DNA from: Tribonema minus
Lineage: Eukaryota > Sar > Xanthophyceae > Tribonematales > Tribonemataceae
Length of the DNA: 64,000 bases
NCBI GenBank assembly: GCA_017506865.1
Contig: JAFCMP010000519.1
Span: forward strand, 62,001 to 126,000
Direction of reading: 5' to 3'
Below the pieces are notes generated by a model. The model had not been told where the DNA came from, ran no database searches, and worked only from the letters and a program-made list of their open reading frames with translations. This document shows positions 22,601-60,500 of this stretch, in pieces (positions within the stretch are counted from its first letter, which is position 1; each line of letters opens with the position of its first letter). A program made the position numbers and the translations under genes.

Positions 22601-25600
22601 GCAACGGTGTGCAGCGTGAGAAGCACAGTCGAGAGGGTGGTGAGGCGCATGTGTCGGCGTTGAAGGCTCCGCAATGAAGGGATTGGCAGGCATGGCATCA
22701 GTGATAGCAGTGTGAGGTAGCACGTGCACCACACAATACAGGCCGCTGGCAACAAATCTGCTGGGTAATGCCTTATCTACACTAACATGCATGGCCACTG
22801 GATTCGGTGAGCTTGGCAATCGCCTCAATCAAGTTAAACGCCAGATAGTGGCCATCTCAGCTGTGCTTGTGAGCGCATCAGCATTGAGTTGTCGCAGAAA
22901 GGTTTGCTGGCGATCACCAAGGCATTGATTCATGACACACAGATTGAGAAGAGCTTCAAGGGCTGGAGTTAGGGTTTGTAAGCAGCACAGCATGATTGTG
23001 AATATGCGTTGACGACATGCGGCATCCTGAACTTGCTTTGCATAAAAGGCAGATGTCATGGCAGTGGCACGAAGGCCTTACGCTAACCCACACCCTAATG
23101 TATGCACGAAGGCATGGCATTCCACCACCCCACCCAAGCCATGGGTCGTCAGCCACCACGGGCTTTCAGTGGACAACGAAAACAACGACTGAGCCAGTGA
23201 TAAAGATGATGAAAGCGCATGCCGTATCACCAAGTATTTATGAGTGCATACAATAGCAATGGCCAGCTGGCATACCTGTTGTATTCTATAGTACGCGTAC
23301 GCCATCGGCGGCACGAAGAGGATGAACGCAGGCGTAGCCACAGCCACCACAGTAAAGGCCGTGCACATGGCCAGGAACGCATCCGCAAACGACGCCAGGG
23401 TGGTAGGGATGGAGAGATCCAGTGTGTCACAGTCTGAGGAGAAGCGCGATATGATGCGCCCCCCTGATGTCACCTGTCACAGGGCACACAGGCACCGTGC
23501 AGGGGTGGTGATTGCAGGACTCATATCGCTCAGAACTCGCGTAGTGGCCAGAAGCCTCATGCATGACTATCTTGATTGCAGCTGCTTTGGGGGAGAAGCG
23601 AAAATACGTTGCAGTTCATCGGTTCCAGAGACGTGGACGTTGGCATGATGCGCCCCGATGATGTATCCTCGGTGCTGTTTGCCTTGCAGCATTTCAACAT
23701 GTCCTGGTATATAATGATTCTGCAGCGATCCATGACCGCTGTCTGCAAGGTATTGCGCTCCCATGCTGCAAAGATGCATGCATCAGACACCAGACTTGTG
23801 ACTGGCAATGTCTGCACAGAAAGAAGCTTCACATACCATGCGTGAAACTTGGTGCTCGCGCTTGGCATGACTCGCCAGCAAGAAGTGCTGACTCGCCAGC
23901 AAGAAGTGCTGGCAACATTGTCACTGCAGTGTTGTCAAAGGTGGTAATCCGTTGACCTCAACACAGCTCTCTCACCAGCATGCCACAGTGTGCCGCGTGT
24001 GCTGTGTTCGAGTTCCTTCTTGGGACAGAGTGCTTACTGTTTGCACACATGTGAACATATGCCGCCGCCGCAAGCAGCACACCGACACGCCCTGCTCGGA
24101 ACGCTCATGACGCTAAAGCGCACTCGCAATATTGCGTACGCAGTAGGGGTGCAAGCATACATTGAGTTCTGGCTTTGCAATACATGTGCTGCAGAAGTTG
24201 ACATTAGTACTTCTGCATGACTGCTCAGTACTGATGCTTGTGCGTCTGACAATAACAGCCTGGAAACCGATTTATCAGTACTTTAAGACGTGTAATGGGC
24301 ATGCTTGAGAATGGCGCCCAGAAAGCCGTGCCGCAAAACCGTCATGACAAGCTTAATTTGAAAGAAGTGCAGGGGTGTCGCTCACATGTGGTTGCAATGC
24401 TCAATACATATGCTGCCCCGTCAGCCCTCAGCACCATGGGTTGACGAGTGCACGGAGAGTAGGGAAGGATGCTGCTCAAGAAGTCCTTCTTCTGGCACAG
24501 AGGTTCTTGCACATGAAGAGCCGTGACATCAACGAATTATCATTAGCGCCCGACCAGATTCTTTCTTCTGGCACACATGCGTAAGGTTCTCGGACATGAA
24601 GAGCGGTGACAACATCAGCCAGTCCTCATTAGCGCCTGACCTGAAAGAAGCGCAGGTGCATGGCAGCGACATCAGCGACTTCTCATCAGCGCCTGACCTG
24701 AAAGAAGCGCAGGTGCGTGGCGGTGATCGCGTCCAACAGGGCCTGGTGCAGCGCCCTGCTGCCCTTGAGGCCCATCCAGCACACCATAAGGAAGCGCAGG
24801 CACGTCATGCACGCCGTCGCCAGACACACCGCGGCGTAGGCGCACAGGTACGCATTCGCGTCGCCGCCCTGCACGAAGGAGCCGCTCCAGTGCGCGAGCA
24901 CTGCCTCTTTGGACACGCTCACGACCTGGGAGACGATGCTCAGGGCCTGCGTATGCGTGCGACAGGGTGGCAGCGAGGGGGCTCTGGATGAGGTTCAAGC
25001 GGGCGGAAATCGCGTCATTTTTGAGCAGATCAAGAGTCGTTGCACAGCGCCTTGGCTGCCTCTATTTTTCTCTCTTAGGAGCAAAATGGCGGCACGTGCA
25101 GTTGCTCTGCCGTACAACTTAGCACATGGGGATGTCAGGCAAATTCCAAGGATTGAGCCGTAGCCGAGCATCTGCAATCATACCATTATGACGATGCCGT
25201 TGTTGCAACCCTGTAATGATAAAACCACCAATTCCTGCATAGTTTAGTGACATGTCAACTTTCTCAGTAGACATGCTCGTCATATGCATCGTCATCACTG
25301 GCGTGGCGACGGCAACGGCCACCGCCTCTTTGGGGCACAGCACGCTAACTTCAACCCTAACCCAACCCAACCCTACGGCAATGGCTTGATACCACAAGCC
25401 ACAAGCGTGCAGCCATTTCACAAGTGTGCAGCCATTTCAAGCTGCCTTAACCACCCCCTTGCTGCACATCTTTGTGCAACCTGAAAAGCAAAGCAGTTTT
25501 CCTGACACTAATAGAGTGCCAGCAAATGATAGCAAGTCGCGGTATACTTGGGAGTGCTTTGGTGTTACCCTGCTCACCAGTGTTGCGGCAACAGCACAGT

Positions 25601-28600
25601 AGGCCGCAGTATACGTGAGATTACATTTAACGTGACATTACATTGGTGTAACCCTGCTTACCAGTGTTGCGGCAACAGTCCAGATGCCACAAGCCTTGCA
25701 GTACTGCCCATAGACGGCCATGCCATGCTGCCCGGCAGACCCCCTCCTGTCTTCATCGGCCTCTCGCACGCCAGCGCCCTTGCCGCGTATGCCCTTGATG
25801 ACGGCTGAAGTAGCTCCTGCAATCATGCATACACCACATTTTGTGTTATTACACAGTTGTCAATGGTACCAGTACGCCTGTGCTGGAGTACGTGCAATTT
25901 ATCGTTGGCCATACTGGAACTAGCACCCCCGCTGCACCTGCCTCTGACGTACGCCAACAAGCACCGACTGAGCAACAGAGGGCTGCAGTACTGTACTTGT
26001 TGGTGCTAGATAGCCACATCTTTAGTTGTCCCTGTCATTGACACCTTCACTTGCACCAGCACCATGGCCTGCTTGCTGTTGCCAACAGCTGAGCTAACAC
26101 CCTCGACAACATGCATAGGTATAAATGGTATCAAAATTGTGATAACTGCAAGTTCCAGTGTGATTATGCTGAGCACCACGCACTCACCGTAGGAAACCGC
26201 CCCGTTGCCTTTGATGGCCGTTGTCTCGCTGATGCCACGTGCCGCTGCTGCTCGCTGCTGCCGCTGTTGAGCACTGCTGCCAGATGTGCTGCCGCGTGGA
26301 AGAACGGACTTGGCAGAAGCAGGTGGAGGCGGCGATGGCGTGTCATCGTAGACCACCGTGGAGAAGTCCATGCCGCTTGCCAGGAGCGATCTGTGGAATT
26401 GCGGAAAGTGGCAGCAGGACATGCACTCTCAACACGCTTGGGGAACATACACACATGTCGTAAAAGTAGTCTACAACGTTCGGCCATGTCGGCCACATCG
26501 CGTGAACTCAGGGTCTGACCATCATCGGAACCCTAAGCCAGCACGTCAATCATGTCCTGTGTACTTCAACTTGAAGCAAAGCCTTCCGTGTTGACGTTGT
26601 CACCTGCAGTCATTGTGCCTTGCGATGCGCCCCCCCTCCAGCACCAGCACGTCAATCATGTCACGTGAAACTTCAAATTGAAGTACAGCCTACGCAAGAG
26701 AATGCATCGTCACCTGTAGTCGTTGTGGCGCGCAATACGGCCCCCCTCCAGCACCAGCACGTCGTCCGTGTCCCCCAGGTACTGCGGCTGGTGCGTGGAC
26801 ATGACAACAGCGCAGCCGCGCCGCGCGAGCCGCTTGATACAATTGTCCATGACGCTGCGGCCGACTGCTGCGTCCAGTGCCGACAGCGGATCGTCGAGCA
26901 CGGCGACGTCGCAGTCGCTGTAGAGGGCGCGCGCGAGTGCGATGCGCGCCTTCTGGCCGCCGCTGACGGTGATGCCTGAGGCGGTGATGAATGCGGCATG
27001 GGCACAGGGCATCGCAGGGTATCGTGAAGGGTTGAGAGGGTAGGCTTAGGCTTTGGGTTAGGGCGTGTGACTCTGTGAGTCTCACGAGGTCTTTGCGTCA
27101 ACCAGAGCTGACTGCATTGACCAGGCACGTTCTGCTACATGCACCGATCCAGGCACTTGAACATGTTTTCTGGCAAGTTTTCATTAAGCAGCACACAATG
27201 ATCACGTACACCTCGCCAGCAAGCATCCATATCCATCACCGCACAACAAACATGTACAGGTTGAAGTATACAGATACAAGTACTGCAGTGTACAACATTG
27301 CAGCGGCCTTGCCTTTCTCGCCGATGATGGTCTTGTCCCCCTGTGGCCACTCCCTCATATCCTCCTCTAGAGCGCACGCTCTGATGGCTTCTTCATAGCG
27401 CGCTTCATCCACGCTTCCCCCCCAGCCGAACCCCCCCTGCCCCGCCATGACGATATTGTCTTTGACGCTGGCGTTGATAATCCACACCCTGTCGCCGCAG
27501 TACGCCACACAGCCGCTGCGGCACACCCAAGGCACCAGAGGCGACGATTGCTGAGGCAATGTTGTGTATGGCACTCATATGTTGATACTTCGGAAGTATA
27601 TGTATGCTGATGTGGTATAGTCTACAGCCCTGGCGGACCAATGCACCAGAGGCGATTGCTGAGGCGATGTTCGTGCATGGCACTCGTATGTTCAAGAATG
27701 TATGCTGTTGTGGTAAAGTCTACATGCCCATGTTCCTCGTCCGCCATCAATGGTGTTCTTTGTTGACTTATAACTATTGATCGCGTGCGCGTGTGCAGTG
27801 CAGCATCACGCCACATAGTCATTGGAGACATGGCACCAGGGAACCCTAGCCTAATGCCGTTAGTCCTGTCTCTCTCAGACTGATTAGTTCATGATTTCAC
27901 GAAGACCTGAAGCTTGGTTCTACCATGCTTGCTATGCGCATGTCTATTACGACTAGGTCTCCTTGTGTTCGTCTGTAGGCATTGCAAAATACCGGAGCAA
28001 ACAGTCGCTGAGAAGCTGCCTGTACCCCTGGCATGCACTGGAGCTTTTACTGACGACGCAGAGCACTCCTGGGACAACGCCCATGAAGTTCATTCTAAGA
28101 CTTGTTCACACTGCAGTAACCGCACAACTGAATGGCATCATACAGACGAGAGCACTGCAAAGGTAGTATCATGCCACATTGTGCACACAGCATGGTGGCA
28201 GGTCAGCAGTGCATGATACCAGACGCCAGCATTTGGTACAAGCTCCAAGTAGATACATACATACCTTGCATACTACACCACAAACATGATGATTAAACCA
28301 CACGAATGATGATTGCACCACACACATGATGATGACTGCATCTCAAGCACTGTTGAAACAATACAAAGATGAAGCACCAGCCACTGGAGGTCATCATAAG
28401 CACTGATGAGATAACCGAAAGATACGGCAGCAACCACTAAAAGTCGTCATCAGCAAGTGCAGTCAGTGCAACACCACAAAGGCATTCTTTGTGCGCTGAG
28501 CACTGCAGTGCACTCACGTCTGTGATCGGACGGTGACAGTTCCGGAACCAATGTGCTCCAGTAGTCCCATGAGCAGTGTTGACTTGCCACTGCCAATAGT

Positions 28601-38265: not shown

Positions 38266-38645
38266 CTATCGAAACACGTACATCAGCACACGATGTCAAA
38301 CCGAAGGATGTGTGGCTGGGAGTGCTGTGGTATGTACTTGTTATTAATGCTCGCTCAGGGCGCAAAAGAGCCCAGATGAATGGTATCTAAGCTCAAGCTG
38401 TACGGAATCTACATGTCGTGTGACAGTCTGAAAGTGTCTCAATGACAACAAAGTGGCATGTACTTATAAATATGATACTCAAAAGTATCGGTCCACACAA
38501 ACAGTGAGGTTCCTGTTCGGCACATTGCGCCTATGCCAGATAGGCGGCAGCCAAAGGTTTCAGCTAGACGACTCCCTTTAGCAATGGAAGGCATGAATTG
38601 GCATTTGCATATATTTTAAGCTTTGTGTGTAGCAATGGATGTGCT

Positions 38646-43500: not shown

Positions 43501-45548
43501 TTTGGGAATGTTGTTAAGAGTTGATCGTCAGTGCGCATTGAGGCACTGTTTGTCAAAAGGTACACACAGATTCTGGCAGCAAGCTTGACATTGACCACGT
43601 GGACTTGTTCCCGTCCCACGCGATAACTAATAAGATGCGCCAGAGGGATCACCTATGCAGATTCTGGTAGTAAGCTTGACATCTACCATATGGGCATTTT
43701 CACACCCTAAGTGAGATTAATAAGATGCGCAGCTCACCTATGCAGACTCTGGTAGCAAGCTTGACATTAACCATGCGGGCTTCATACACCCCAAGCAAGA
43801 CTTAATAAGGTGCGCCACTCACCTGTGTCAATGATATCCTCCACCAGCAGCACATTTCTGCCTTTCAAGCGCGACATGTCCCCCCCAATGATCTGGCACT
43901 CGCGGCTGCTCTGCGTGCCCACATACGACTTGACGCGGATGAAGTCGTACGTGAACGGCACGTAGATCTCATCGTTGAACTCTGCAAAGTTCCGCAGCGA
44001 CTGCAGCAGGTCCTGGAAGAACGCGTTCCCTCCCTTCAAAACGCACACGAGGTGTATGGTCTCCGCTCCATAGTCAGCGCGGATGTCCTGCACAAGGCCA
44101 CGATGCAGCGTGACAGTAGGCACGTCGTGTTGAATCAGAGAGCGGTGCATAAGCTGTCTGGTGCACATGAAACACATAAGCTGTATGGTGCACATGAAAA
44201 CACATGTTTCATCTGCACCATACAGCTTATGCACCATTTCAACATGTTGATGCTGTTTAGACGACAGGCACTTGGCATATACCTGCAGCTGCGTGGCGTG
44301 CAGAGACCTTGAGTACTGCTGCTGACTCTGCTGCAAACAGATGTTGTGGCAGTGCAGCACATAATGATACGACACATGCACACAACAAGAGCAATGAGGC
44401 TCCAACACACCATGCGTTGCAGCCATGCTAATGTTTTCATGAAAGGACGACACTGTAGCGCGATCACATCGACAGCATCTTGAGCCGCTAGGAAATGATT
44501 TGTTTAAAAAAGCATACTTGAAAGCATTGTTGCACTCTGGCGAAGTGAGAAGTGTCGTACCCGTGCCATCTTCTTCACCCGGTCCTGTATGAGACCTCCA
44601 GGGATCATCCTGAACACACAAGTCAGCACACAAGAATGCAGCTCGTAAGCGCTGGCGAGTGGCTGACATCGCGTACGCCACCTCTGCTCACACGTGACTA
44701 GTATCGTCGCCAAATGAGCTGCAGCTTTGGCTATGACACTTGCCCAGCAGCTGTGCAGGCAAACACCCAGCAATACCATGATGCCGCCTCCCATGTGGTA
44801 CAAGCCATGTGTATGTACAGTGGTATGCAGTGGAGGCAAACCTCAGCACTCGGGGCATACACTCACACATCAACTCACACATTCTCCAGCGTGCCAGCGT
44901 AGTGATTCGGTATAAGCAAGTCCTCCAGCTTATACATATGGTCCTCCTGCAGAGCAAGAGCGGATTGTATATTGTGCATACATTGATGAGGACAGTTAGC
45001 GCACAGCTCAGCGTATGTTAAGCTTGTCTCCATGCAGTGCCCAAGAAGTTCATGTCTCTATGGGATTCAGGAGTTGCTGCCTCCACCAAACAAAAGCAAC
45101 TCTTTGCGCAGTGAGGCCGACAGGACACATGAGGTGTAGTGGTTTTCACAGAGAATTGCCATAACACGTTCGGAGCTGGGCGCTGTCAAATGAAACACTG
45201 CAGCAGATCTGACACGATTAGGTCGCCTGTGCGGGAGGGGTTTCGAAAAGTGGCAGTTGCCCGACGCTTTTCGCATGTGAGGATGCTGTGCTGCACATGA
45301 TGTCAATGAATACACACTGCGACTGCTGTTAAAGCCTTTCACATAAGTCTGCATGCAGATGCACATCGCCGCTGGTACATGCCAAGCGCCCCGCGTTCAC
45401 AACAATTGTGTGTGACCAGCTTGTCTGCTCAAGGTCAAAGACGCTGCGTACGACCAGATACTGTTCAGCTCACCGTGATCATGATAGGCGGCCGCCTGCT
45501 CGCCTCCACCGCGCTGCTGTCGTGCTCATCCGGCTTCGGCGCTGACAT
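40536..45548 (-). CDS. HPRT: Hypoxanthine(-guanine) phosphoribosyltransferase
   Basis: Purine-salvage enzyme that transfers phosphoribose from PRPP to hypoxanthine/guanine in the cytosol. Seven exons: 45548-45474, 44946-44879, 44609-44561, 44087-43823, 42155-42029, 41293-41282, 40647-40536. They total 708 nt, giving 235 residues plus TAG, close to the human length of 218. Every phase agrees. Seen in order: Met with a short variable lead ([10 protein letters not shown]), [30 protein letters not shown], the VLKGG loop, [13 protein letters not shown] (flexible catalytic loop), [13 protein letters not shown] (PRPP-binding motif), SLLEKRTER, then [20 protein letters not shown] and a short tail. 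IPDK comes from a 12-nt microexon. Intron 4 carries tandem donor copies; intron 3 carries a strong hairpin. The gene is head-to-head with TRAPPC5, 384 bp apart. Confidence 0.96.
41282..41293 (-). other. HPRT: 12-nt microexon of HPRT (encodes IPDK junction)
   Basis: On the minus strand CATACCCGACAA is preceded by TATCGCAG and followed by GTGAGTGG. The preceding exon ends in phase 2 (AG) and the next begins with G, so the microexon gives AG-C, ATA, CCC, GAC, AA-G: S-I-P-D-K. Without it the protein would read GFRFVVGY and lack four residues that the family places before FVVGY. Confidence 0.9.
43555..43830 (-). repeat. Tandem copies of HPRT exon 4 donor region
   Basis: Units of about 75-90 bases, each with AGCTTGACAT and TTAATAAGRTGCGC on the plus strand. 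Three of them carry an AG then GTGA- donor on the minus strand: the true ACACAG/GTGAGT, then CATAG/GTGAGC, then CATAG/GTGATC. They stack into the intron from the exon end at 43823. Confidence 0.88.
44174..44232. repeat. Inverted repeat (hairpin) in HPRT intron 3
   Basis: ATAAGCTGTATGGTGCACATGAAA faces TTTCATCTGCACCATACAGCTTAT across a loop of a few bases, giving a stem of over 20 base pairs with one mismatch or bulge. A second, weaker direct copy of the left arm precedes it at about 44150. Confidence 0.88.
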
Positions 45549-45932: not shown

Positions 45933-48900
45933 ATGGCAGCTCCTGGGCAGCGGCTGCACATTTTGGACAGGAAAATTGCGGTGCCGGGCTCCAGTTATGC
46001 ATATCCCACAACCAGAGACACCAGGGTGGGCATTGTGTCCGCCTCCTCCAACGCATACGCTGCAGCAGGAGGGCGAACGACAGAGGTGGGTGATAACCTG
46101 AACTAGCGCATAGGTCGTGAGCATGACAAGCTGTGTGCATACTTTGGTCCTCTGTGTGTATAATGTCTTCATCAACCTTTTACTGCCTTGGTACGTTCAT
46201 CTTGCTAAGCAAGGTGGCGAGGCACGTGCAGGAACAACACCACTCTTATGACAGCGCAGAAGATGTTGGTATGACAGAGACCATCATTCCGCCATGCGGC
46301 GGGTAGTGGCCCGTCATGAAATTCGTTAGTCCAACATAGCCTGGCAGGTACACGTTTACTCCCCGCACCAGCTGTAACCCAACAGCAGCAAGCTGACCGA
46401 TCACCCCGATACAAATCAAATCAGGCTCTCCTCAGCAACCTCCACTTTCTGATGATCACTATTCATAGGTGTAACTGGATGCATCGCCGCTGGGCCCTGT
46501 CAGGGCCTCAATTCTGCAAGTGCAGGTGTGCATGGCCCCCGTCACTGCACTGTTGCACACAAGCATACCCATGCGTATTTCACAAACAACAGTGGCAGCA
46601 GTGCACGTGCAGCACCATTCTGCACATTATCTGTCTGATTCAATTCATGAATGTCTGCCATCGCTGCCCTCCATCGCTAATTCTATCTCCAGGTCAGCCT
46701 GAGCGCGTTTAGTTTCTTGCTAAGCGAGATGGTTCAGCACGTGCAGGCGCGTGTAACTTCAATCGATGCTCTGGAGCGGCGACTGGAAGAGGCGGGGTAT
46801 GCAGTGGGCCTCAGGGTGCTGGAGCTGCAGCAGTTCCGCGACAAGTCTGTGGGAAAGCGGAAAACGCGGCTACTTCAGGTGACTGCCTCATCACACAGGT
46901 GTTCTAGCTCCTACTGTAAGACATGGTAGGCATGCTGTACCGTCACATACACGAAGGTTGTGAGGCGGCCATGCCCTTCATACAGTACATAATTGTCATG
47001 TCAACATAAGGGTTGGGTGGCATAGAGTGCACTTGAACACTGCACTTAAAATTGGACCAGAAGTTGTCCTGCGCAGTTTGGAGTGCATGTGATCTGTAGA
47101 TGTCATGTGTGCTTGTGATCGGTGCTGCCTTGCTTGCCATCTCCAACGTACCTCACAGGTGTCTGTGTGTTTGATGCTGACTGTGAATGGTACTTCAATA
47201 TGTTATCTCAAGATAGCTTTGTCGTTGGAGTAAGCATACTCCCAAGCACGTGGGCAAGCATCTCTGCTCAAGCAGTCGATTACCAAAAACATGTCATTGG
47301 TCCAGTTCTGTTCTTCCCTCAACGTTTCTGCGCCAACATGGTGCCTAACGTGAGCGCTGGCTAGTGGTGAGCACAAAAGTTGATTCAACTTCTTGTTGAA
47401 GCTGGACTGACGGTCATGCGAAACCCACACTTCTGCATCTCTGTGCACCAACGATGCTGGCACTACAGAGAGTGAGCGCGGACATTTGTCTCTTGCAGTT
47501 TTTGTTGAAGTTACATATCGCAATTGCCACGCAATCAATCACCGCTTTTGTGTATCTACATATGCGTCGAATCGACTATGCAGGCACTGGGTCAGCGCTG
47601 ACATGTGTCTATGAAGTTCTTGTTGAAGTTACACAGTGCGAGCGCCATGCAATCAGTCACCGCCTTTGTGTATCTTTATATGCGGCGAATTGACTATGCA
47701 GGCACTACAGTGTGTGAGCGCTGACATGTGTCTCTTGAAGTTTTTGTTGAAGTTACGTATCGCGATCGCCATGCAATCAATCTCCGCCTTTGTGTATCCA
47801 CACATGCATTGAATTGATAATGCAGGCAATACAGTGGGTGAGCGCTGATATGTGTCTGTTGAAGTTACATAGCGCGATCGCCAAGTGATTAATCAGTCAC
47901 TGCATTTGTGTTTCTCTGCATCAACAATGCAGGCACTGCAGTGGGTGAGCGCTGACATGTGGCGAGCGCTGTTTGGCAAGACGGCAGACTCGCTGGAGCG
48001 TTCCACGGAAAACGCCGACGAGTACATGATACACGAGCTGCAGCCCATCACCAACGTCTTTGTGAGCGTGCCGCCAGATTTAGGGCAGGTGGGTCCCGCA
48101 CGCATACATAGGGTTAGGGTTAGGATTCAGGCTAGGGTTTATGACTTGACCTCCCTTAGAGGCAAGCACACTGAGCGTGTTTGCACCATCCATGCCCATT
48201 TCTGACTGTGCTGTGAGCTTTCTTGCACATGATGCAGAGCCCCGCTACCTGACATTAGAGCGAGGTTGAGGTGAAGTTACTGCACCTAAAGTTATGGAAA
48301 GAGTTAGGATTAGCGTGCGCTCATGCGTTGCAGCACAAAGCAAACACCACCCGTGAGCGGCGCGCGAATACCTACGGTATACACACGTGCATGCGTATAC
48401 TGCATTGGTGGGCCGCGGGTGGCAGCCATGTGTGTGTGAGCATTGATAAAATGTGAGCATTGATAAAATGTGAGCATTGATAAAATTCATGTCATCGTCC
48501 ACACAAGCTGTTCATTAGCCTATCCCAGTGCGCTGCTCAATCAGCGCTGCTTCTTGCCGCCGTTACTGTAGCCTCTCACACAGTATCATCAATCCACAGA
48601 CACTACCAGCCATGGCTTGACACATCAGGCTGGTAGTGTCTGTGGTCATCTTTGCTATCGCCCATCAGTACATTGTGCTATGCAGTGAGAAGTGCCGGTT
48701 TTGTCGCTCACTATGCGTGACTTGTGCTGTGTGCTGTGCGTGCAGCTGAACTGCGCGGCGTATATAGCAGGCATCATCGCCGGTGCGCTGGACGGAGCAT
48801 GCTTTGTAAGTACACCGTACGGTAGCATAGGTGAACCCTCAACAAACAGTTGAACTATTTGTTGAAGTTCTTGATCGCTAGTGCAGCGCGTGCATTCTAA

Positions 48901-49511
48901 CAAACCGTTGAACTTTTTGTTGATTTTCTTGATGGCTAACAGCGCGTAGGTCATGCGTGTGAATAGCTAGTGGGACTAGGGTCACCCTTGCACACCAAAT
49001 GTGGGTGCCCCAGCCATGGTGTGCTTATGTTTGGTGCATTGGCGCTCATGCCAACTCATACTTCATCTTTGCTACATGACATTGATTTAGCTTCTCTGCT
49101 TTCTTGAGCGCGATGCCAGAATGATCAGCTTGCGCAGTTACCATGACGACTGCTGTCACTGCATGGCCTCTCTTTGTCATCCCAGAGGTGGCTTGAACAC
49201 ACTGCCGTGCGTGTCTGACTCACACTGCGTGCTTGTGCTGCATGTGATGATGATCATCAATCTTGATTGTAACTGTCGCAGCCCGTGACAGTTGTTGCAG
49301 CCCACACCATTGACACGCTGCACTGCGTGCTTGTTTTGCATGTGGTGATGATCATCAATCTTGATTGCAGCCCGCGACAGTAACAGCACACACCATAGAG
49401 CTGGCGGGGCAGGAGGCCAACATTACCGCGGCGGGCGGGCCGCGCTGCAAAACGGTGTTTCTCGTCAAGTTTAGCGAGGAGGTCATGCGACGAGAGGCGC
49501 AGCTGGCTTAA
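45933..49511 (+). CDS. TRAPPC5: TRAPP complex subunit 5 (Trs31 homologue)
   Basis: Core subunit of the TRAPP tethering/GEF complex, acting on Rab1/Ypt1 at ER-Golgi membranes. Five exons: 45933-46025, 46693-46878, 47933-48088, 48746-48805, 49371-49511. All four introns are phase 0; the total is 211 residues plus TAA, against about 190 in animals and plants. Exon 1 gives a short variable lead (MAAPGQRLHILDRKIAVP). Exon 2 has the hallmark VSLSAFSFLLSEMVQHV and EEAGYAVGLRVLEL. Exon 3 has MWRALFGKTADSLERS and YMIHELQPITNVFVSVP. Exon 4 has LNCAAYIAGIIAGAL. Exon 5 has TVTAHT and TVFLVKFSEEV. Intron 2 contains a tandem array copying the exon 3 edge; intron 4 contains a copy of the exon 5 edge. Intron 3 starts with a TTAGGG tract about 24 bases after the donor. 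Confidence 0.96.
47440..47945 (+). repeat. Tandem array copying TRAPPC5 exon 3 acceptor and start
   Basis: Four decoy units (starting near 47457, 47580, 47697 and 47822) precede the real junction at 47933, spaced about 110-125 bases apart. Each copies the exon start GCACTRCAGTGGGTGAGCGC and then TGACATGTGTC where the exon has TGACATGTGGC. Three keep the ATGCAG acceptor; the most distal has CTGG instead. Between them runs CATGCAATCAATCWCCGCCTTTGTGTATC. Confidence 0.93.
48100..48135. repeat. Telomere-type block just inside TRAPPC5 intron 3
   Basis: ATAGGGTTAGGGTTAGGATT begins about 20 bases after the GTGGGT donor of exon 3. The G-rich strand is the transcript strand. Confidence 0.85.
48445..48485. 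repeat. 17-bp direct repeat x3, GTGAGCATTGATAAAAT
   Basis: Three exact or near-exact copies side by side in TRAPPC5 intron 3. Confidence 0.9.
49220..49385 (+). repeat. Duplicated acceptor of TRAPPC5 exon 5
   Basis: The ~110 bp segment CACTGCGTGCTTGT...GATGATCATCAATCTTGATTG...CAGCCCGYGACAG occurs twice. The second copy ends in the true acceptor at 49371 (TTGATTGCAG/CCCGCGACAG). The first has GTCGCAG/CCCGTGACAG, also a plausible acceptor. Confidence 0.9.
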
Positions 49512-50766
49512 TATCACCTGTTTGCAACCACAAACACAGCTTTCATTGGCACCAGATTGCTTGCAGTAACAGGGTTTGTGCTCTGCGCGCCTGTTGTACT
49601 GTGCATGCCTTGCCCTCGTGCTGCTACTGTAGTGTCTACAGCTTGTCTGCGCTGTCTTGCCATACAATTGGGCCAAGTTTTCGTGCGTTGGCCAATCCTC
49701 TGCTTAGATTTCTCCCTTGCTTAGCTGCAAGCGATACAGCCAGTACTGGGCGTACCTACATTGTAAATCCAACGTGCACACCTATGGAGCCCGCAATGTT
49801 GACATCTCCATGGTGCATGAAACAAACAAAACTGTGCCACGGAACTTGTGCGCATGCAGGCGATTGGTCGTTTGTATGGCTGCATGTATGTATGTGACTT
49901 GTGGTGCTCTGTAGCAAGCCTCCGCAAGTCCACTTGCCTTAAAGTGCATGTTGCGGTCAGGATTAGGGTTAGAGCTACCCTTAACCCTAAGTGGACGCTG
50001 ACATGTGGTTTAGCACCGACGCAACTATGAGAGCGTTCATTTCTTGAATGCTCAACACCTTACTAGTAGTTGTTGCAAGAGCATGCACATTTCTTGAATG
50101 CTCAACACCTTACTAGTAGTTGTTGCAAGAGCATGCACAGATTGGTGACCTATGCTTTTGGCAAATACCATGTACGCGCACTCCGTCAGTTTCATCCTCT
50201 AGACACTGCTGCTGTCAAAGAACATGCAGAAGCTAGCAGCTGAATGCGCACCGGTGATGGCAGCAATATGACACATGGAATGTGACATAGTGAATACAAA
50301 ACATTGAACATATATTATAATCATGAAAGTCGTGACACATTGACCTGACATCAGCCAAACATCTCAATTCCCAAGGCAATGACCTCTGGGAGCTGATCAA
50401 GAGCCACGAGAACCAGATCTCGGGTTGGAAGCGCACCGTGCACGAAGAACACAACACTGATCTCACTGTGAACCGCACACGTGGCGGCCACCTCAGCTCC
50501 ACAGGAGCTGGCCAGCAACACAGACACGGCAGCATGCCTCGATGATTATGTGCTCCCGCTTTGGACGCAGCAGCTGATGAAACGGACTCCTGCGACCAAT
50601 GCCCCTTCGTATATGTGCTGACTGACCCTCAAAAGAAGGCACAAGTACGTTCCGGAAATCGGGATGACGGCCAAATGTCCGGCTATGAAGGCGGAACAAC
50701 GTCAAGCTTTACTGTAAGAGTTACGACCCTAGCCCTAAGGTGAGGGTTGCGCATCTAACCCTAACC
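49512..50766. other. Intergenic between converging genes, with orphan frame
   Basis: TRAPPC5 ends on one side and the Ala-rich gene ends on the other. At 50041-50140 a 50-bp unit is repeated exactly twice (TTCTTGAATGCTCAACACCT...GCATGCACA). A plus-strand frame at about 50345-50545 reads NDLWELIKSHENQISGWKRT and is protein-like but unassigned. TTAGGG/CCCTAA stretches occur near 49965-49990 and 50725-50775. Confidence 0.5.
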
Positions 50767-53700
50767 CTAACCCTCCATGCCCACATCCTCAAATGAGAAG
50801 TCCTCTTCGTCAGCCGAGTACGGCTCGTCGTCGCTGTCGGAAAGGTCCAGCGCCGCGCTGCCGCTGCGGATGATGCACCTGACGACGATGAGCAGCACAA
50901 CATTGTTAAAAAAATTGCTGGTCAGCATGCAGCCTCAGGCATGGTGTTCGTTTGGGGTGTGTAGTTTTGGTTCAGAGAGACTGGGGGCAGTGCACGGCGC
51001 TTTGCGTAAGCAGCTGATTCGCGACCAGCCATGTCTACCTGTACTTTGAAGTACATGTGCATCTTCGACAATGATGTTGACTACAGGATACAAGCTTTAG
51101 GTATAAATATGCCCAGTGCCATCAGTGAGACCAATGCAATGCGCGTGACACGACAAATGAAGCTGGTGGCGGCGCGCTATCCCAGTGGCTATCTGGTCAA
51201 GATGCTGTTGTGAGAGGTGAAGTGGTCATGAGTTGTCTGGTCAAAGTGCTGTTGTGACTCAACTTGTGAGCGGTGAATATAGGGCCAGAATTACGTTTGA
51301 GGTCAGATTAGGGTAAGGGTTTGCCTATCCCTTGCCTATCCCTTACAGTTAACCCTAACACCTTGAGACAAAGACACATATCCACTGCAGTTGAGAACGG
51401 CGGATTGAGACATGGAAGGTGGTCCCGGAACTGACGTGGCGATCTGCAGAGCTGCAGACTTCTTGCACTATTGCAGCAATGCCCATTGAAAAGCGCTTGT
51501 CAGATGTAGTACTGCCTGTACAAAAGCCCATCTGCAAAGGAGGTGTTGTGGCTCACCTGTTGTCCACTCGCGGCGCGGCCGCAAACAGCGGTAGCAGCAG
51601 ACTGGTGGGCAGCGGCGGCAGGTCATGATGAGCATCACCATCGTCAGCAGCGCCCCAGTCATTGTCTGCTTCGACCTGAGTGGAGGCAGGCAACACAGGT
51701 GTACAAGTGCAAGATGGTCAACGGTTGCTTGCGACAATTGTCTTGCCTTGCAAGCAGTTGTAATGCACTTTGTTTTTGATACCTTGCTCAGCAGGAGGCC
51801 AGTGACTGGAAGACAAAAACTTCAAATGGGCCAAGAATAAGGAGGGGCGAACCGCATACACCTACATCGAAGTACATGCATGCATCTTGCATTATACTGG
51901 CCTGCATTGTGACACTGTTGCCGCTCTAGCGCTAGTTCTTAGTGTGAGTGGCAGTTTCAGACTTAGCAGCACGCGTGCTAAGCTGCATACCGGCAGTTGA
52001 GCACCCGTGCAGACGCTCGAGGCACATTGCATGTGATAGCCAACATGCAGACAGCATGCACGCAACGCAGACGGCCTGCGCACGCATCACCTGGACCTCA
52101 AGCTAGTTATGTATGACCTTGATTCCTAAGCTAGGTATGCACATTTTATGTACTGCGCAGCCTGGAGCAGGGCAAGGGGCAGGTGGTACCAAACCTGAGA
52201 CCGGTCCAGCTCCGACTCCGTGTGGAACATGCTACACACATACATACATACAGTGTAGAACATGGTGCATACCTGGAACCGGTCCAGCTCCGACTCCGTG
52301 TAGAACATGCTGAGGCGCTCGGTGCTAGTCAGCACCTCCTCCATCTCATGCACCTCGCTCACCAGCTCCTCGCTGAACCGCACGGAGCGTCGCTGCTCGT
52401 GCCGCGCCCCCGACTTCAACTTTGCCGAGCCGCCGCTGCCGTCATCGCCGGCGTCCCCCTCGAACTCATCCGATAGGTATATGTCCGCGTCCGCGTGCGC
52501 CGCCTGCGCGCTCTGCACGAGCGCGCCTGGCTGAGAGTTCGCTGCTGCCGTCGCCGCTGCTGTCGCTGCTGCCATTGCTGCTGCTGCTGCCATCGCCGCT
52601 GCTGCTGCCGTCCCCGCCATTGCTGCTGGTGCTGCTGTTGCCGCCGCCGCGGTTGCTGTTGGTGGTGCTGCTGCCGCCGCTGCTGCTGCTGCTGCTGCTG
52701 CCGCCGCCGCAGCTGCTGGTGCTGGTGCTGCTACCGCCGCTGCTGCTGCTGCCTGTGCAATGTCAGCTGGTATCCCCTCCTGTGCTGCAGCGGCCTCCGC
52801 TGCTGCTGCAGCTGCGACCGGTCCTGTGTACACCGCCGCCGCTGCGCTCTCCGTTGGCAAGTCTGGTGACAAGCCCGAAGTTGCCGCCGCCACTGCCGCC
52901 ACTGATGATACTTCGTCCGCCACTGCTGGTGTCGGCGCCACTACGACTAGAGGCAGAGTGGTTTCTGGTACTGGTGAGTCCGTTGCGCGCTGTAGCGCAC
53001 TCGTCGTTTCTGCTGCTACTACTACTGACGCAGCCGGCAGAGCGTCACATGTTGCAGTTGCTTCTATTTGCAATGGCCATGCCTCAGCAGTCTCGTCTGA
53101 TGGTTCTGCTGATGCTTCGACGGGCACTGGCGCTGGTTGTTCTGATGGTGCTGCTGATGATGTTATGTGTGCTGGTACGGAAGGATCGGACCCACCCGCT
53201 TCACCTGCGACTGCTGCTGCTGCTGCTGCTGCTGCTGCTTCGAATGCTGCGTGAGTCGTGTCTCCCTCGGCAACAGTCATGTGGGCAGCCACGTCAGTGC
53301 CCGTAGGATGCGCCGCCGCCTCTGCTGAGGTATGTGTTACGCTTTCACAATTGCGGCCTTCAGCGTCTGCCGCAGTTGTGTCCGCTCGCAGTGCACCTGC
53401 CATGCTGACCTCTGCTGCTGCTGTTGCAGCTGCTGGTTTCCCTGCGTCATGTCGTGATGGTGAAGTTGCCGATACTGGAGAGGCATCGCCTTGCTTGACT
53501 GTAGCCCTGTCCTGTGGTGCTGCATCAGAGATGGTCTGACTTTCGAGTTGATTTGCCGCTTGCCGCTGCCCACGCTGCTGGTGTTGGTGCTGCTGCTGGT
53601 CTTGTTGTTGCGGGGATCCATCACCCGAAGGCAACCCAGGCTGGACCGAGTTGTCACGTGGCTGTTGCGATGCACCGCTGTGACTTGTGATGATGTCCGA

Positions 53701-54075
53701 TGCAACAACTGTTGGTTGTGCAGCAGCAAAGGAAGCATCACAGGACGAGGGATCTGCTGCGGATGGCGGCTGGGAAAAAGGAGCCAGGGATGCGCTACTG
53801 GTGTCTGCAGTGGTGTCGACGGGCGCATGCAGGCCACGAACACGCAAAAGCGTGGCAGCAACATCCTTGCTGGAGAAGCAGGCAGCGACCGCATCGCGCA
53901 CAGCCTGCTGCCTGGAGCGTGCCTCACTGGCGGGCGAGAGCTTGTCCCGGGAGGTTTGGCGCCGCAAGTCAAGCAAGTTCAGGCTGGCCTCGATCAACAA
54001 GCCTCGGATAACGTGGTCGTGAACTATGCGATGAATGGCGTCGTTTAAGATGTCCTGCTCTGCATGCACCTGCAT
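50767..54075 (-). CDS. Ala-rich disordered protein with PP1-docking-like motif
   Basis: Three exons: 54075-52273, 51675-51557, 50878-50767. Phases agree; 678 codons including TAG. The start is the ATG at 54075; upstream in-frame sequence has no other ATG. Residues 1-95 look helical and structured (HAEQDILNDAIHRIVHDHV, IRGLLIEASLNLLDLRRQ). Residues of about 110-530 are low complexity, dominated by Ala runs (GCN repeats), Thr, Pro and Gln. Near residue 563 RSVRFSEELVSEVHEM fits an RVxF PP1-binding site, followed by SMFYTESELDRF. The C-terminus is acidic (DLSDSDDEPYSADEEDFSFE). The final Gly-TAG is read from a CCCTAA repeat. Role unknown; a phosphatase-targeting or scaffold protein is an inference. 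It is head-to-head with the next gene. Long plus-strand frames over the Ala part (Leu- or Cys-rich) are shadows. Confidence 0.8.
52185..52310 (-). repeat. Duplicated 3' edge and donor of exon 54075-52273
   Basis: The exon end ATGTTCTACACGGAGTCGGA...CGGTTCCAG then GTATGC recurs about 80 bases into the intron as ATGTTCCACACGGAGTCGGA...CGGTCTCAG then GTTTGG. Two donors therefore follow the same coding edge. Confidence 0.9.
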
Positions 54076-54581
54076 CACTCCCGGGCGTCGTCCAGAATAG
54101 CAGTGCGCAGCTTGTTCTTGCTCTGCGAGCTGTCGCACGCTGTCTTAACCTACAAGCGACAACTCGTGCGTGCACCTGGGCCTGCAGCACTAGATAGCGC
54201 TTGTGTCGGTGTCGGAGGCCCAAAGGCTTGTCTCTGTCACCTATAGGCTATAGCTCAGCTCAGCCGGCGTCGTCGTCCCGTGTTCTCAAAGTGTCCCGTC
54301 AGGAACGGATTCATCAGGAACGGATTACATACAGCAGTTACTGCACTCGTAACTGATTTGATTTTTGGGAAGTTGCCCTTCGTTTCGCGAGTTGTTTCAG
54401 CTGTGCTGAGTGTGCTACAAGCAAAGCGCTCCCACCAAATACTGCCGTTTGATTGTCAACACATCTGCTCGCCTGCAAAAAGGGCTTCTTGTGCGTTTCA
54501 AGTTTGCAACGGGGGCAAGCAAGCGTACACATTGAGCAAGAGAGGAGCTCGTGGATACCGCGTGCCTGGGTTGCGTGCAGG
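54076..54581. promoter_or_regulatory. Head-to-head promoter region, Ala-rich and acidic genes
   Basis: The 506 bp between the two diverging start codons must hold both promoters. A direct repeat (CAGGAACGGATT twice near 54301-54326) is present. No TATA box is obvious. Confidence 0.5.
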
Positions 54582-57500
54582 ATGAGCAGTGGTTCGGAGG
54601 TGTCGGACGACGCGACTTTTGAAGCGGGCAGCGAATCCGATGACGACAGGTGCGCGATGTGCGAAAAATTGCGCTTGCTCTGAGCGCTTATCTAAAGTCG
54701 CGCTTTCTATCATATACTCCCGCAGTTCTTCTGCGGCAACTCTAAGCTACATAGCAATTGTAAGCATGCGCGGTGGCGGGGCTGCTGCCATCACCAGTGC
54801 CCTGTAGACGTCGCATCTGTCATCAAACGAGAGATTGTAATTCTATTTTCTTGCACGTTTTGATGATGCTGACACCGCGAGTGCCGAGCAAGCCGGTTGA
54901 AACCACATTGGCATACCACCATACGCTAGGGCTGCAACGTCTCTTAAAGAGCTGAAACTGTCAGCTACGCCGCCATCACCAATGCATTGCAGTACTGCTA
55001 CTCGGCATGCTGTCCTGATTGTTGGGAGTAGCATCTTCCGTGGCACGTAGTGAAATTAGACAGGCCCGTGCCTGATACTGCAAGGCAGTGCACCCTGTTC
55101 TCTGTGCATCCAGCATCAGTGTCTGCATTTGGACTACCCAAGGAACATCAAGTTCTACGTCATTGCAAGCACCAGTAGTCAGGGTGGAAGCGGTGACGAC
55201 AGCACACTCGTCTGATTGTGCAGATTTGATGGGTGTGGTATGTCTAATAGTAATGTAGCTAGTGGAGACATGTCAAGTGGTGCAGCCTATGCTGGGGTGT
55301 TGTGGGTACACCACATCATGTACCTCTTGCATTGACGTACATCCCGCAACGCGCTTCCAAAATGCACTCTGACCTTCTGTTGCGGTTGCCATCATGCATA
55401 GGGTCTTTATACTGGCACACAAGCATGTGTGTATGTGGTACATGGTATCTGATGATTACAACGTACACTACAATCTTACTTTTGACCATACAAAAGCAGT
55501 AACATGTGGTGGGTAGATTCTTCTGACTCATACAAATGCAAACATGCGTGGTGAGTAGATATGCCACATGACTTGATGGCTTGACCACGTTGTAGCTCGA
55601 GCTTATGGTACTTTGTTGTTGTGCTATCACGGCAAGCAAGGGGTAGCTGACTGCAAAGCAGACTTCACAGACGGCCTTTCATAAGTGTCAGCAACAACAA
55701 TTTGTGGTGGTCTATTGTGTTGAGTTTACTGGCCAGCATCAACGAAGATGCTCGTTCAGGTTCCACTGCCTGCGAATCTGCACCAATAGTTCTTGGGGAT
55801 GGTAACCATGGTAAACGCTGACGCCAACTAAACGTGTTGCGTACTCCCACAGTAAAGTACGTATGGACTTGTATTCATGAAGGCCCAAGGGACGCCGGGT
55901 TGCCTATGTAGTCGAAAAGTTTGCGTCAACGCAGCAGCCTAGTCTGCGCTGCGCCCTAGGAGCTTGGATACCGGCGCTGCAACACAGCCCAGCATTCGCG
56001 CTCCGCGTGTGTACGCCATGACGCGCTCCGCCAACTCCCGCGCCAGCGACATGCTCAGCTCAATGAGGATCTGACGCTTAGCTAACCCGGCCTTGCGCAA
56101 CACATCTGCCTTCCCCCCCCCCTGAGCACAGTGCTGAGTGCATCGCCAACTCCTTGACAAAGAGTCTTGTATGCTTGCCCAGCCGTCCGTACGACTCCTG
56201 CACGAATGGCACAAAAGCCAGGCTTTGCGGCATCAGCTGCTGAATACAGGTCAGCTCTCAACAGCTGGCGCCAGCTGGTGCCTGTGCCTTCTCTGCCATA
56301 CTCTCGCAGCTCATTTGGCATTGGGCACAGAGCGCTATGCAGTCACTCACTATTCATGTGAAGATAATCTGCGTTGATGCATACGCAGGATGCGACCCCA
56401 TTCATTTCGTCTCATGAATTCTGCACTGTCTGCCGTGATTATGCAGCTCGTTTGAATACGACTACACGGTCGCCTCAGACGACGACGATGACTGTGACCT
56501 GGACCTATCCAACTGCAAGTGAGTGAGCCGCTGAGGGTTAGGGTGAGGGTTAGGGTTAGGGTTAAGGTTATTTAGGATCACTGTGACCTGGACCTCTCCA
56601 AGTGCAATTCTGCAACTGCGATTGGATTCTTGACTCCGGAGTTTAACACATTGGACCTGTCACCAAGACGCAAGAAGGGTAGATTCTGGTGACACGCAGG
56701 CATGCTGTAGGGTGCACAAGCACTCTACTATGGCGCTTACGAAAGCCAGAAGTGCAGGTCCTGTTCCCTCGTATCTGCCTTGTCACCATAACCCACCATG
56801 CATGAAGTACAACAGTGATGCACTGGCTATGCCAAGCAGGAACAAAGCTGAGGCATTACTTGTGGTTTGGAGTAAGAGCTGCCAAGGGTCAACCCTAGGG
56901 TTAGGGTTAGTAAAAAAAGTTGAGTTGGAGCTGGCCATGCATGTTTTCCTTACCACTGGTGCCGCTAAAACTGTCTGTGCTGCGTCCTCGTGCGCCCTGC
57001 TTATGTATTTCACCACACTGTTGCCACAGTTGAATCCGCAGCACGCTTGTCATGTTGGGGCCTCGCCACGTGGGGGCTGAGCCAGGTGAGGGTTAGAGGT
57101 GGGGCTAGGTTTAGGTTTGCAAGCAATATGGTCAGGTCGTGCCGCTGATGACCAAGTGCTGAAAACTCAATGCTCACCGCGCACTCATGCCTTTCTGCTC
57201 TTTGCCAATGCGCATGGTGGCTCCGCAGCTACAGCAGCGACATCCTCGCCATCCTCGGCAGGAGCGAAGCCGAGATCACCAGCAAGAAGGCTGAAACCGC
57301 CGCGACCGACTGGAAACCGCCAACGCACACCGGCCTCGACAACAGCCAAGCCATCGCCCCCTTCCTCCAGTCCCTGGGGGCCACAACACCCCCCAACATC
57401 ATACCTGTGACGCCATCGCTGATAGCGGTGCTGGTGCCGCCGAAGGTGGCGCCGATGCAGCGCAGCAGTGCTCAAGCGGCGGCGGCGGCGGCGGCGGCTG

Positions 57501-60500
57501 CGCGTAGTGGTAATGACGGCGGGGGCGACGACAGCGGTTCCGAGTGTTCCGACTGGAACGATCACATCGGCGCCGGCGACGCCGCCCCGTCGTACTTGTG
57601 TCAGGGCTCAGCTGCGCCTGGCGGCAACGCTCAGGTAATTGCAATGTGCATCTCGATATAAGCAGTTTGTGTCAGGGCTCAGGTGACTGTACGAATCTCG
57701 ATATAAGCAGTTTGTGTCAGGGCTCAGCTGTATCTGGTGTCAACGTGCAGGTGACGGTGTGCATCTGTTGTCGACACAAGCAGCAGGTGGGTGGGTGGTG
57801 TAGAGGTGTGGAGCGCTGCTGAGGCGCGTTGACGCAATTTGAACCGTCAGGGCGCAGTTGCACCTTGTGTCAACGCTCAAGAGACAGTTGTTGCCCCACC
57901 CATGAAGTGGGAGTTTGGGATAATGGTGCTGTAGCTGGTGCTGCTGAGGTATAGTATCGCAATTGCATTAAGAACGTGCTGGTTGAGAGCACTCTGCTGA
58001 ATCAGACCAACTACCCAAACCCGGCATATTTGTTGGTGCAGACGCCATTGAATGACCCGTGACTCGTTCGTGCGCATTTGCTGGTGTGTACATTGTGCTC
58101 AACGCCCAGGAAGGAACAGTGCAGAGGTCGAACAATTGGCCGCAGGTACTGCCTTTGTGAGTGTGCATGGTGCTCATACCTTGAAGTTCTTCAAAGTACT
58201 TCGAAGTATCATGGAACTGACTCGTGCATGATGATCTCAATGCATACACATACTACCGTGCTGCGTTTGCAGAGCGCGGGCGAGCGCATGCTCGACGCGG
58301 ACGACCCGCGCAACATACGCATCACCAGCAAGGCCAAGCCACGTCTCTCCTCGCCCACGGCCGCAGCGGCGACCGCGGCAGCAGCAGCGCACAAGCAGCA
58401 GCAGCCGCAGGCGCCGCAGCAGCAGCAGCACCAGCAGCTCAGCAGCAGCGGCACTCGCCAGCCGCAGCAGCCGCGCCAGCCGCTGCCGAGCTCTGCAGCG
58501 TCGCCGGCGTCGCCGCGCATGTCGCGCGTGCTGTACCGCAGCGTGCGGCCTCAGCCTCCGCCGCGCGCGCCCGCTGCGCCTGCGCAGTCGGACACGGAGG
58601 CCAGCAGCGACGAGAGCGACGCGGAAGATGACGAGTGCTATTTTAGCGAGGGCTCCGATGACGTCATGGAGGTGGGTGGGTATGTAGGGCATGCGTATGC
58701 TTATACTTCGGAAGTATGTAGTGATACCCAGTCTGTCGATGCTTATATTTAGTAAAAGGAAGTCTTCAGTCTGCCGAAACGCTGTATGATTGTGTGATCA
58801 TGGCCAATGTGGTTAAGATCACAAGTGAGACTAAGGCAGCATGGCGAAACTTAACTCCACGAGTGCAATGTCACCAGCACTGAGCCCTGGCATTGGTGAT
58901 CAGGAGCAGACGCCGCCTGTTGTGTAGTTGTTATGTACGCCTATCTAGCAGCTTGGCAGCATGAAGCTGGTGCTGATGAGCTTGCTGTTTGACGGAACTA
59001 CTACTAGAAGTACTATTAGAAGTACTATTGGTAGTGAACGCAGTGCTCAGCGATGGCTGCGTGTTCTCTATGCGTGCCGGGTGGACGGAAACGAAGACGA
59101 GGTCATTGCCCAGATTGTGGGCTATTTGGTGGTACAATGCATCAATTCGATAATAATTTAACAGCAGTGCTCAGCCATTGCAATGCATCAATGAGAATAG
59201 CTGTGCTCAGCCAATGGCTGCATGGTGTTACAATGCATCAATGAGAATTTAATAGCAGTGCTCAGCCAATGACTGCCTGTCCTCTGTGCTTGCCAGGTGG
59301 ACGGAGACGAAGACGAGGTGATTGCCCAGATTGTGGGCTCCAACGCCGGCATGAGCGCCAACCTGTTGGCGGTGCTCTGCGGCAACGGCAGCGGCGCTGA
59401 GCCGAGGTGAGCTGCTATTAAGCTGCTAATACATTCAACAAACACAGTCGTTGTGGTCACGTCATGTACATGTACCGCCGTGTCCGTGAAATCTCTTCAT
59501 GTGTGAGCAGGAAATTTGCTCTAGGTGCGTATCGCTGACAGCTGTCGCGCACGCACCGGCTGCGCCACAATGCTTAAGCAACACCCCTATGAATTTGGAA
59601 GTATAAGCAAGGGCGGCCCTCTCCCGCTTCAGCTATACTGAGAGCTGCTTCTGCCCCAACCCCCCCCTAAAAGTCTGTGCCATGTGCAAGTTGACGTCGG
59701 CTCTAAGAGAGCAAGCTGCCGAAGCAGTCACCGGACATCCGCTCCAAAGGGTTGAGCACTGCCACTTGCCCGGCACGCAAAGCGGAGTGCACTGCTTGCG
59801 TGTACTGCAGCGTGTACAAAGGGGGGGGGAGGGGGGCTAGCGTTGGGTAATGAGTATGCACGAGGTAGGTGTTCATAATAGCACTGGTGGTGAAGGGGTG
59901 CGAGCAATTGCGCGGCATGGGTCATTGAATGAAGCAGGTAACTGAAAAGCACCCTCTCTGAATATGCAAAGCTTTTCGCAGCGTCAGTGTTGATTGCGAG
60001 CTGCGGCATCGTGTGGTTGATGGAGCATACTCAAGTTAGTGCTGCAAGCACATCAAAGGACCTCTGACCCCAACTTCCTGCGATTGAAGCCCATGGTGTG
60101 ACAAAACGCTGCAAGATAATACGTGGTCCTTGACAATAACCCCTTGTATGCGAAACAAAATCCCGGACTTTTACAGTCGTAACAATACACAGCTTTTGTA
60201 TTTGCAGTCTCAGTTACTCTATTGATATATGCGCACTAGCGCCCAAATCAAGTACGTTTTGGTGCAAGCTATACTTCAAAGCAGCACCATCAAACCACTG
60301 CCATGCGCTCACCGCCCGCTGTCTTTTGCCTTTGCGTTTTTTCACCTGTGCAAACAGCCGCAAGCTGTCCGAAGCCCTCGCCAAGAAGACCCAGGAGGCC
60401 GAAGAGATGACCAAGGCATCCACGTGGAAGGCCCCCGAGCAGTCAGGGCTCAGCAACAGTCAGCCGCTGGCTCGAAAAGCCACACTCCCCGAGCATCAGC

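Follow-up and report, generated by a model that had tools for sequence, protein, structure and literature searches.

Splice junctions in the window

We studied the introns of a 64,000-nucleotide stretch of the Tribonema minus genome (contig JAFCMP010000519.1, positions 62,001 to 126,000 of the forward strand, in GenBank assembly GCA_017506865.1, which comprises 158 Mb in 554 contigs), referred to here as the window and numbered from its first base. This stretch carries genes for an ABCC transporter, HPRT, and TRAPPC5, as well as two unnamed genes, one with an Ala-rich and the other with an acidic reading frame, and an earlier note on this DNA had listed 12 junctions in these genes where exon edges, together with their splice sites, seemed to be copied into the adjoining introns. 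For each of the 12, we aligned 60 bp of exon and 12 bp of intron against 800 bp of the intron side and set the score against those of 100 Markov shuffles, while the repeat arrays themselves were located by near-diagonal self-alignment and Tandem Repeats Finder. The features found at these junctions are as follows.

18734..18887, minus strand: weak degenerate copy near donor 18886 (score 15, shuffle maximum 13)
23473..23669, minus strand: ABCC acceptor 23473, for which the weak match at 23645-23669 scores lower than the best shuffle (17, maximum 19)
24612..24721, minus strand: 57-bp direct repeat (Tandem Repeats Finder) at the donor of an ABCC transmembrane exon (PF00664; junction 24697/24698), with the exon tail and GT copied at 24631-24664 (33/34 identical; 32, maximum 17)
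25567..25661, minus strand: ABCC donor 25661 and its intronic copy at 25567-25608 (36/41 identical; 29, maximum 17)
26538..26772, minus strand: ABCC donor 26713 (exon PF00005) with a 106-110 bp repeat (Tandem Repeats Finder, self-alignment), 59 nt of exon plus the donor being copied at 26599-26662 (52/64 identical; 40 versus 19)
27527..27729, minus strand: 111-bp direct repeat (self-alignment) beside ABCC acceptor 27515, wholly intronic and without the exon edge (exon-edge score 14, maximum 17)
43567..43827, minus strand: 91-bp repeat array starting at HPRT donor 43822 (Tandem Repeats Finder, self-alignment), real but entering the exon by only 5 bp (exon-edge score 12 versus 17)
47432..47974, plus strand: 123-124 bp array upstream of TRAPPC5 acceptor 47933 (exon PF04051), each copy holding the acceptor and 29 nt of exon (32 versus 17)
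49278..49400, plus strand: second TRAPPC5 acceptor, 49371, of a short exon without Pfam match, with a weak upstream copy at 49278-49313 (19, maximum 16)
52184..52272, minus strand: donor 52272 of the Ala-rich frame and its intronic copy at 52184-52233 (44/49 identical; 37 versus 15)
57596..57964, plus strand: donor 57635 of the acidic gene (no Pfam match), 116-bp repeat, copy at 57712-57752 (27 versus 18)
59040..59339, plus strand: acceptor 59297 of the acidic gene, copy at 59071-59123 with 43 nt of exon (49/53 identical; 45 versus 19)

The exon-edge match thus exceeded all 100 shuffles at nine of the 12 junctions. Seven of these score 27-45 (donors 24698, 25662, 26714, 52273, and 57634, and acceptors 47933 and 59297), and the other two, 49371 (19) and 18887 (15), are weak and fall under the threshold of 22 applied outside the window. 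The copies that had been listed at 23473, 27515, and HPRT 43823 did not hold up. As for the exons concerned, those of ABCC on either side of the 24698/23473 intron are backed by homology, with PF00664 profile positions 7-95 followed by 95-161, and PF00005 is matched as well, though the exon status at 25661 comes from the earlier reading of the sequence and its frame has no Pfam match. The HPRT exon is supported by a PDB match and TRAPPC5 by PF04051, and neither the Ala-rich nor the acidic reading frame has a match in Pfam.

Gene sample and intron models

To assess junctions outside the window, we took a gene sample that is independent of repeats, namely dynein heavy chain genes located by Pfam AAA_8 and chosen as long, conserved, and mostly intron-rich. 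This sample included four regions of 40 kb (the first set) and then three partial regions (the second set), along with 20 kb of an intron-poor dynein gene, C90, and 20 kb beside the window. Introns were modeled by our own spliced profile alignment, which used homologs for six genes and a deposited Tribonema protein for the seventh (C522), and were retained when both flanking exons scored at least 30, giving 132 of 165 in the first set and 79 of 99 in the second, or 211 introns in seven dynein genes of one genome. Four first-set introns were below testable length, which left 128 donors and 128 acceptors there, with 79 of each in the second set. The closest named relatives of the dyneins are from brown algae and other ochrophytes (Ascophyllum, Ochromonas, and Ectocarpus). 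Exon length medians are 145-239 bp in the first four genes, and the introns are strongly phase 0 (103/132 and 55/79). The C90 gene (G000:C90:55001-75000, L025-L026) has very few introns and an open frame of 1685 codons, its intron-rich paralogs lying elsewhere, and no near-diagonal repeat was found in L025.

For C522, the deposited Tribonema minus protein P0169 matches the gene exon by exon with 85-100% identity. Here, models built from foreign homologs and from the deposited protein agree at 40 of 42 intron ends, comprising 19 of 21 donors and all 21 acceptors. The two donors at which they differ both have copies.

Exon-edge copies outside the window

Of 207 donors, 47 (33/128 and 14/79) have the last 60 bp of their exon repeated in the intron that follows the exon, and of 207 acceptors, 41 (31/128 and 10/79) have the first 60 bp repeated in the intron that precedes it. 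Altogether, this amounts to 156 copies at 88 of the 414 testable junctions, located in 72 of the 211 introns. Controls were almost entirely empty. No exon edge matched a random other intron (0/128, 0/128, 0/79, and 0/79, or 0/414), and no exon interior gave a match (0/68, 0/71, 0/26, and 0/27, or 0/192). Moreover, in the first set, the wrong neighboring intron gave 1/113 for exon tails against the upstream intron and 0/113 for exon heads against the downstream one (1/226), and the reverse complement gave 1/128 and 0/128 (1/256). In an initial BLAST pass over the same set, 57 of 132 introns had contained repeat pairs, and in 53 of the 57 a copy crossed a junction. The pattern is present in six of the seven dynein genes, with 8-22 arrays in each of those six. 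The observation is real and not confined to the window.

As a rough check of generality, we also looked at eight ABC-transporter loci chosen by family, two of which (L001 and L003) overlap on one contig. Repeats run over the edge of the coding match at L004 (52 nt) and at L006 (tail, 42 and 181 nt; head, 4-48 nt), and at L001 the overlap is 24-93 nt, with an uncertain edge given that the match holds an insertion. Further, the overlap is 5 nt at L003, a 44-nt match lies 1.4 kb away at L005, L002 is a repetitive open frame, and at L007 and L008 no repeat overlaps the coding-match edge. Taken with the window genes, these loci make a peculiarity of dyneins unlikely, albeit on a small sample from one genome.

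Anatomy and decay of the copies

The copies take in the splice site, as a rule together with 30-100 nt from the exon. In the first set, donor-side homologies span the donor G in 62 of 65 cases and the last exon base in 63 of 65, and acceptor-side homologies span the AG in 47 of 50 and the first exon base in 48 of 50. Median exon extents in the first four genes are 65 nt (donor) and 49 nt (acceptor), and the median offsets of the first copy are 155 bp and 177 bp, respectively. Across all seven genes, exon extent has no significant dependence on exon length, and of the 88 first copies, 84 have an offset of 90 or more; seven of these 84 have an exon part longer than 100 nt, compared with 31 expected under uniform placement. 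Where a junction has several copies, the unit edge is concordant within 4 bp in 28 of 41 cases, with a median spacing of 157 bp, and the exon part of these concordant units is 23-78 nt in 27 of the 28. The remaining one, C508-24, with its edge at 250, was excluded as a presumed extension running inside the array; with it included, testing the median against uniform placement yields P=0.009, and the maximum and spread tests are not significant.

Identity to the source is about 0.90 in the exon part and about 0.78 in the intron part, a twofold difference in divergence that is expected if constraint acts on one of the two exon copies. By codon position, the mismatch rates are 0.093/0.085/0.158 for donors and 0.093/0.092/0.173 for acceptors, and indels in the exon part are mostly of one base, so that the copies look like neutral non-coding DNA. 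Their offsets lack a reading-frame preference (37/33/45 of 115 copies). We therefore rejected coding or alternative-exon copies on the strength of the single-base indels, the codon-position pattern, and the absence of frame preference. Mutually exclusive alternative exon tails were set aside as well, as no consistent acceptor-like sequence was seen ahead of the tail copies, judged by eye only.

Another option is that the copies are functional and that a row of them, as reserve or decoy splice sites, controls splicing or the output of the gene. The splice dinucleotide is indeed often kept in aligned copies (GT in 68/83 and AG in 55/60), but it is kept about as well as the neighboring bases, and this retention is close to neutral decay of about 9% per site. 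With the codon-position and indel patterns also being non-coding and no frame preferred, we regard a functional role as very improbable, and the suggestion that the arrays affect splice choice found no support.

The same divergence bears on whether the arrays might be artefacts of assembly or collapse. Divergence between copy and source is about 10-22%, with indels besides, the contigs measure 0.6-1.9 Mb, and the C522 junctions are confirmed by the deposited protein, all of which makes such an artefact, for which no evidence was found, extremely improbable.

Junction bias of the arrays

The earlier note had proposed a genome-wide count of junction-spanning duplications against duplications elsewhere in introns, and a count was made here for the seven dynein genes. 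Since duplications placed at random would fall on junctions too, arrays were scored on intronic sequence alone, and the chance of spanning a junction was derived from the unit size and the pre-duplication intron length by a geometric model. Junctions are favored, as 58 of 77 arrays span one against 30.3 ± 3.8 expected; the first four genes alone, under slightly different filters, gave 44 of 56 against 22.7. Split by age, as judged from intronic identity and with the oldest first, the spanning arrays number 13/17 versus 8.0, 16/22 versus 8.4, 21/26 versus 9.9, and 8/12 versus 4.0 (P=0.0145 for the last). The excess is already there in the youngest class, and hence slow survival of old arrays is a poor explanation, although that class is small (n=12). 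Retention of old arrays as the source of the bias was rejected for this reason, the excess being visible in all four classes. In our view, the data support the conclusion that arrays favor splice junctions beyond what geometry predicts.

Along the gene, the position profile of the copies (first set, introns of at least 350 bp) peaks at the junction at about 0.3 (0.31), stays flat at 0.07-0.18 (about 0.12) inside introns, and reaches zero more than 120 nt into the exon for donors and more than 80 nt for acceptors. A rival explanation is that no special process exists and that ordinary tandem duplications land anywhere, exonic ones being purged, those at junctions being easier to detect through their constrained copy, and their collapse being selected against. 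Purging would account for the missing exon-only copies, and the exon peak is in part a detection effect of the constrained copy. However, the excess of spanning arrays was obtained on intronic sequence only and recurs in the two younger classes, the junction bias shows no visible build-up with age, and exon parts over 100 nt are far rarer than uniform placement predicts. Taken together, we judge this explanation unlikely.

Intron length

Introns with copies are longer, with a median of 807.5 bp compared with 477 bp for those without (p ~1.5e-16). When the distance from the junction to the farthest copy is subtracted (25,348 of 130,051 intronic bp in all), the median of the copy-bearing introns becomes 482.5 bp and the difference from 477 bp vanishes (p=0.97). 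This supports the conclusion that, in the genes examined, the duplicated span accounts for the extra length. Together with the junction bias, it sustains the earlier suggestion that introns here grow by duplication across exon borders.

Tandem character of the duplications

Direct orientation and adjacency to the source both hold, as the reverse-complement and other-intron controls attest. Head-to-tail arrangement, which had been assumed throughout, appears to hold only in part. Among 42 donor-side first copies, the ratio of homology to offset is at least 0.7 in 52%, and the other 48% have less than 70% of the homology expected of a head-to-tail repeat, as opposed to 1% when clean tandem duplications were simulated under the decay seen here. 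Of 38 low-homology spacers (donor and acceptor side combined), 10 have a counterpart no more than 463 bp away in the same gene, as a tandem repeat interrupted by indels would, five match dispersed sequence elsewhere, and 23 match nothing. Either intron turnover by larger indels and insertions is fast, or some of the copies did not arise by strict tandem duplication.

A single strand, a splice site that is nearly always included, a fairly constant exon length, and copies set apart by unrelated spacers are also features to be expected if fragments of unspliced pre-mRNA around splice sites were reverse transcribed and inserted into the same intron. Against such an RNA-mediated route, none of the 414 exon-edge tests found a copy in a random other intron, and about half of the donor-side first copies still look head-to-tail; from these two facts, a local DNA event is indicated, and we consider the RNA route quite improbable.

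Proposed origin of the copies

From the above, we think it probable that recurrent local DNA duplication across splice junctions lengthens introns and is tolerated since the exon-proximal site stays in use. What was observed are the copies themselves, where they lie and how they are oriented, their neutral decay, their bias toward junctions, and the agreement with intron length. In the proposed process, stretches of some 70-240 bp crossing a splice junction, as a rule with about 25-80 nt from the exon and about 100 nt from the intron, would be duplicated repeatedly, in direct orientation and beside themselves, at the level of DNA, and each new copy would fall in the adjoining intron. Within the resulting row of near-identical sites, the gene would keep the one beside the intact exon, i.e., the donor farthest upstream or the acceptor farthest downstream, with the copies being spliced out, remaining neutral, decaying, and so lengthening the intron. 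The event itself may well be a tandem duplication of DNA that is later disrupted by insertions and indels. Use of the outer site would follow from the gene models, which are derived from homology and the deposited protein, and those of C522 put the exon edges there in agreement with that protein at 19 of 21 donors and all 21 acceptors. The outer site may be chosen because short exons among long introns are recognized as exons, and if each short exon is read as a unit, the seeming harmlessness of the inner copies would be accounted for.

Several of our results weigh against this reading. As described, nearly half of the donor-side first copies fall short of head-to-tail homology, and of the 38 spacers, five match dispersed sequence and 23 nothing. 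Moreover, the dynein gene C537 (G000:C537:25001-45000, L032-L033) has 28 supported introns and no repeat array. The bias is also weaker in the three later regions, with 14 of 22 arrays spanning a junction (7 of 12 in C146b), and its expected count rests on our own geometric model. Lastly, 19 of the 77 arrays span no junction at all, so that the claim of a duplicated segment always crossing the boundary was too strong.

A further-reaching form of the proposal is that splice junctions are preferred sites of DNA duplication in this lineage, where some process at exon edges connected with transcription, splicing, or chromatin would recurrently copy about 55 nt of exon and 100 nt of intron. Intron growth would then be driven mainly by this copying, with decay and deletion as the counterweight. 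This we put forward tentatively, as a possibility on the doubtful side.

Other sequence features

Telomere-type hexamers are frequent in the introns of the first four dynein genes, with 107 CCCTAA (24.4 predicted from base composition) and 97 TTAGGG over 100.5 kb, and they occur in 55 of 132 introns. The exons of these genes contain two CCCTAA and no TTAGGG in 35.8 kb. Such hexamers are also present in the window at 21496-21570, 34953-34984, and 56534-56570. Insertion of telomere repeats as the cause of the copies was rejected, as the hexamers are not enriched at copy edges (24/226 versus 8.7% at random positions).

Two other features of the window stand by themselves. Downstream of TRAPPC5, a perfect 50-bp direct duplication lies at 50038-50139, which appears recent and is not located at an identified exon edge. 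Near the HPRT exon, at 44148-44235, a short sequence is seen by eye in both direct and inverted copies and could form a hairpin.

Relation to known systems and significance

Introners, as in Amoebophrya and fungi, are a mass supply of intron DNA, and in this the Tribonema copies resemble them, but the introns here do not form a family of like sequences. The gain of introns by tandem duplication within exons is said to have been treated by Gao and Lynch in 2009. The same idea, with a proto-splice site in the duplicated exon DNA, is ascribed to Rogers 1989 (as given in PMC4974935) and appears in Lehmann et al. 2010 (PMC2891723). Like these intron-gain models (PMC4974935, PMC2891723), our system has a local tandem duplication near splice sites supplying intron DNA; unlike them, it lacks the required likeness between the intron start and the start of the downstream exon.

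One could nonetheless ask whether the introns themselves were born in this manner, by tandem duplication of AGGT-bearing exon DNA as in the Rogers model, or from introner elements. Local duplication is involved in the first of these routes, and the introns are mostly phase 0 (158/211). Yet in the 188 of 211 introns long enough for the comparison, the downstream exon head resembles the intron start in one of 188 and the upstream exon tail resembles the intron end in 0 of 188 (score at least 18), a result from which old events could have decayed past detection. With regard to introners, only 12 of 211 introns are similar to another intron at E<=1e-6, over 144 bp at the longest. Birth of the introns by either route is accordingly highly improbable. 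The longest similarity between introns of different genes is a 144-bp stretch common to C508 intron 24 and C522 intron 13, in opposite orientation and with 77% identity.

The nearest precedent is a tandem duplication across the boundary of intron 1 and exon 2 in the potato RdRp gene, as described by Ma, Lan and Niu 2016 (PMC4974935). There, as here, the duplicated segment spans an existing intron-exon junction and brings splice signals with it, and this qualifies the earlier statement that no mechanism with this outcome was known. The potato duplication is a single case that created a new intron (PMC4974935), whereas in Tribonema 88 of 414 junctions are affected, existing introns are lengthened, and the copy would be spliced out according to the gene models. 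Direct repeats near splice sites are shared with those described by Rogers and Bendich 2025 (PMC11782384), which measure 4-30 bp (mean 11.4) and link the 5′ and 3′ borders of an intron. In contrast to those repeats, the Tribonema copies are much longer, are tied to one border, and lie inside the intron. The paper on stwintrons, PMC8469720, has no bearing on these copies. Full-text searches of open-licence papers brought up no title or abstract opening that describes copied exon edges in so many introns of a genome.

What makes introns longer has been asked for a long time, often with transposons as the answer, and here a local and repeated process is visible. Extrapolated from seven genes to the whole genome, and provided that the rate stays the same, Tribonema minus would offer natural tests by the thousand, each with near-identical splice sites competing at distances of 100-200 bp. 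For genome annotators and read mappers, such rows may be places where junctions are misplaced. In these rows, the exon-proximal site appears to win, which bears on the matter of exon versus intron definition.

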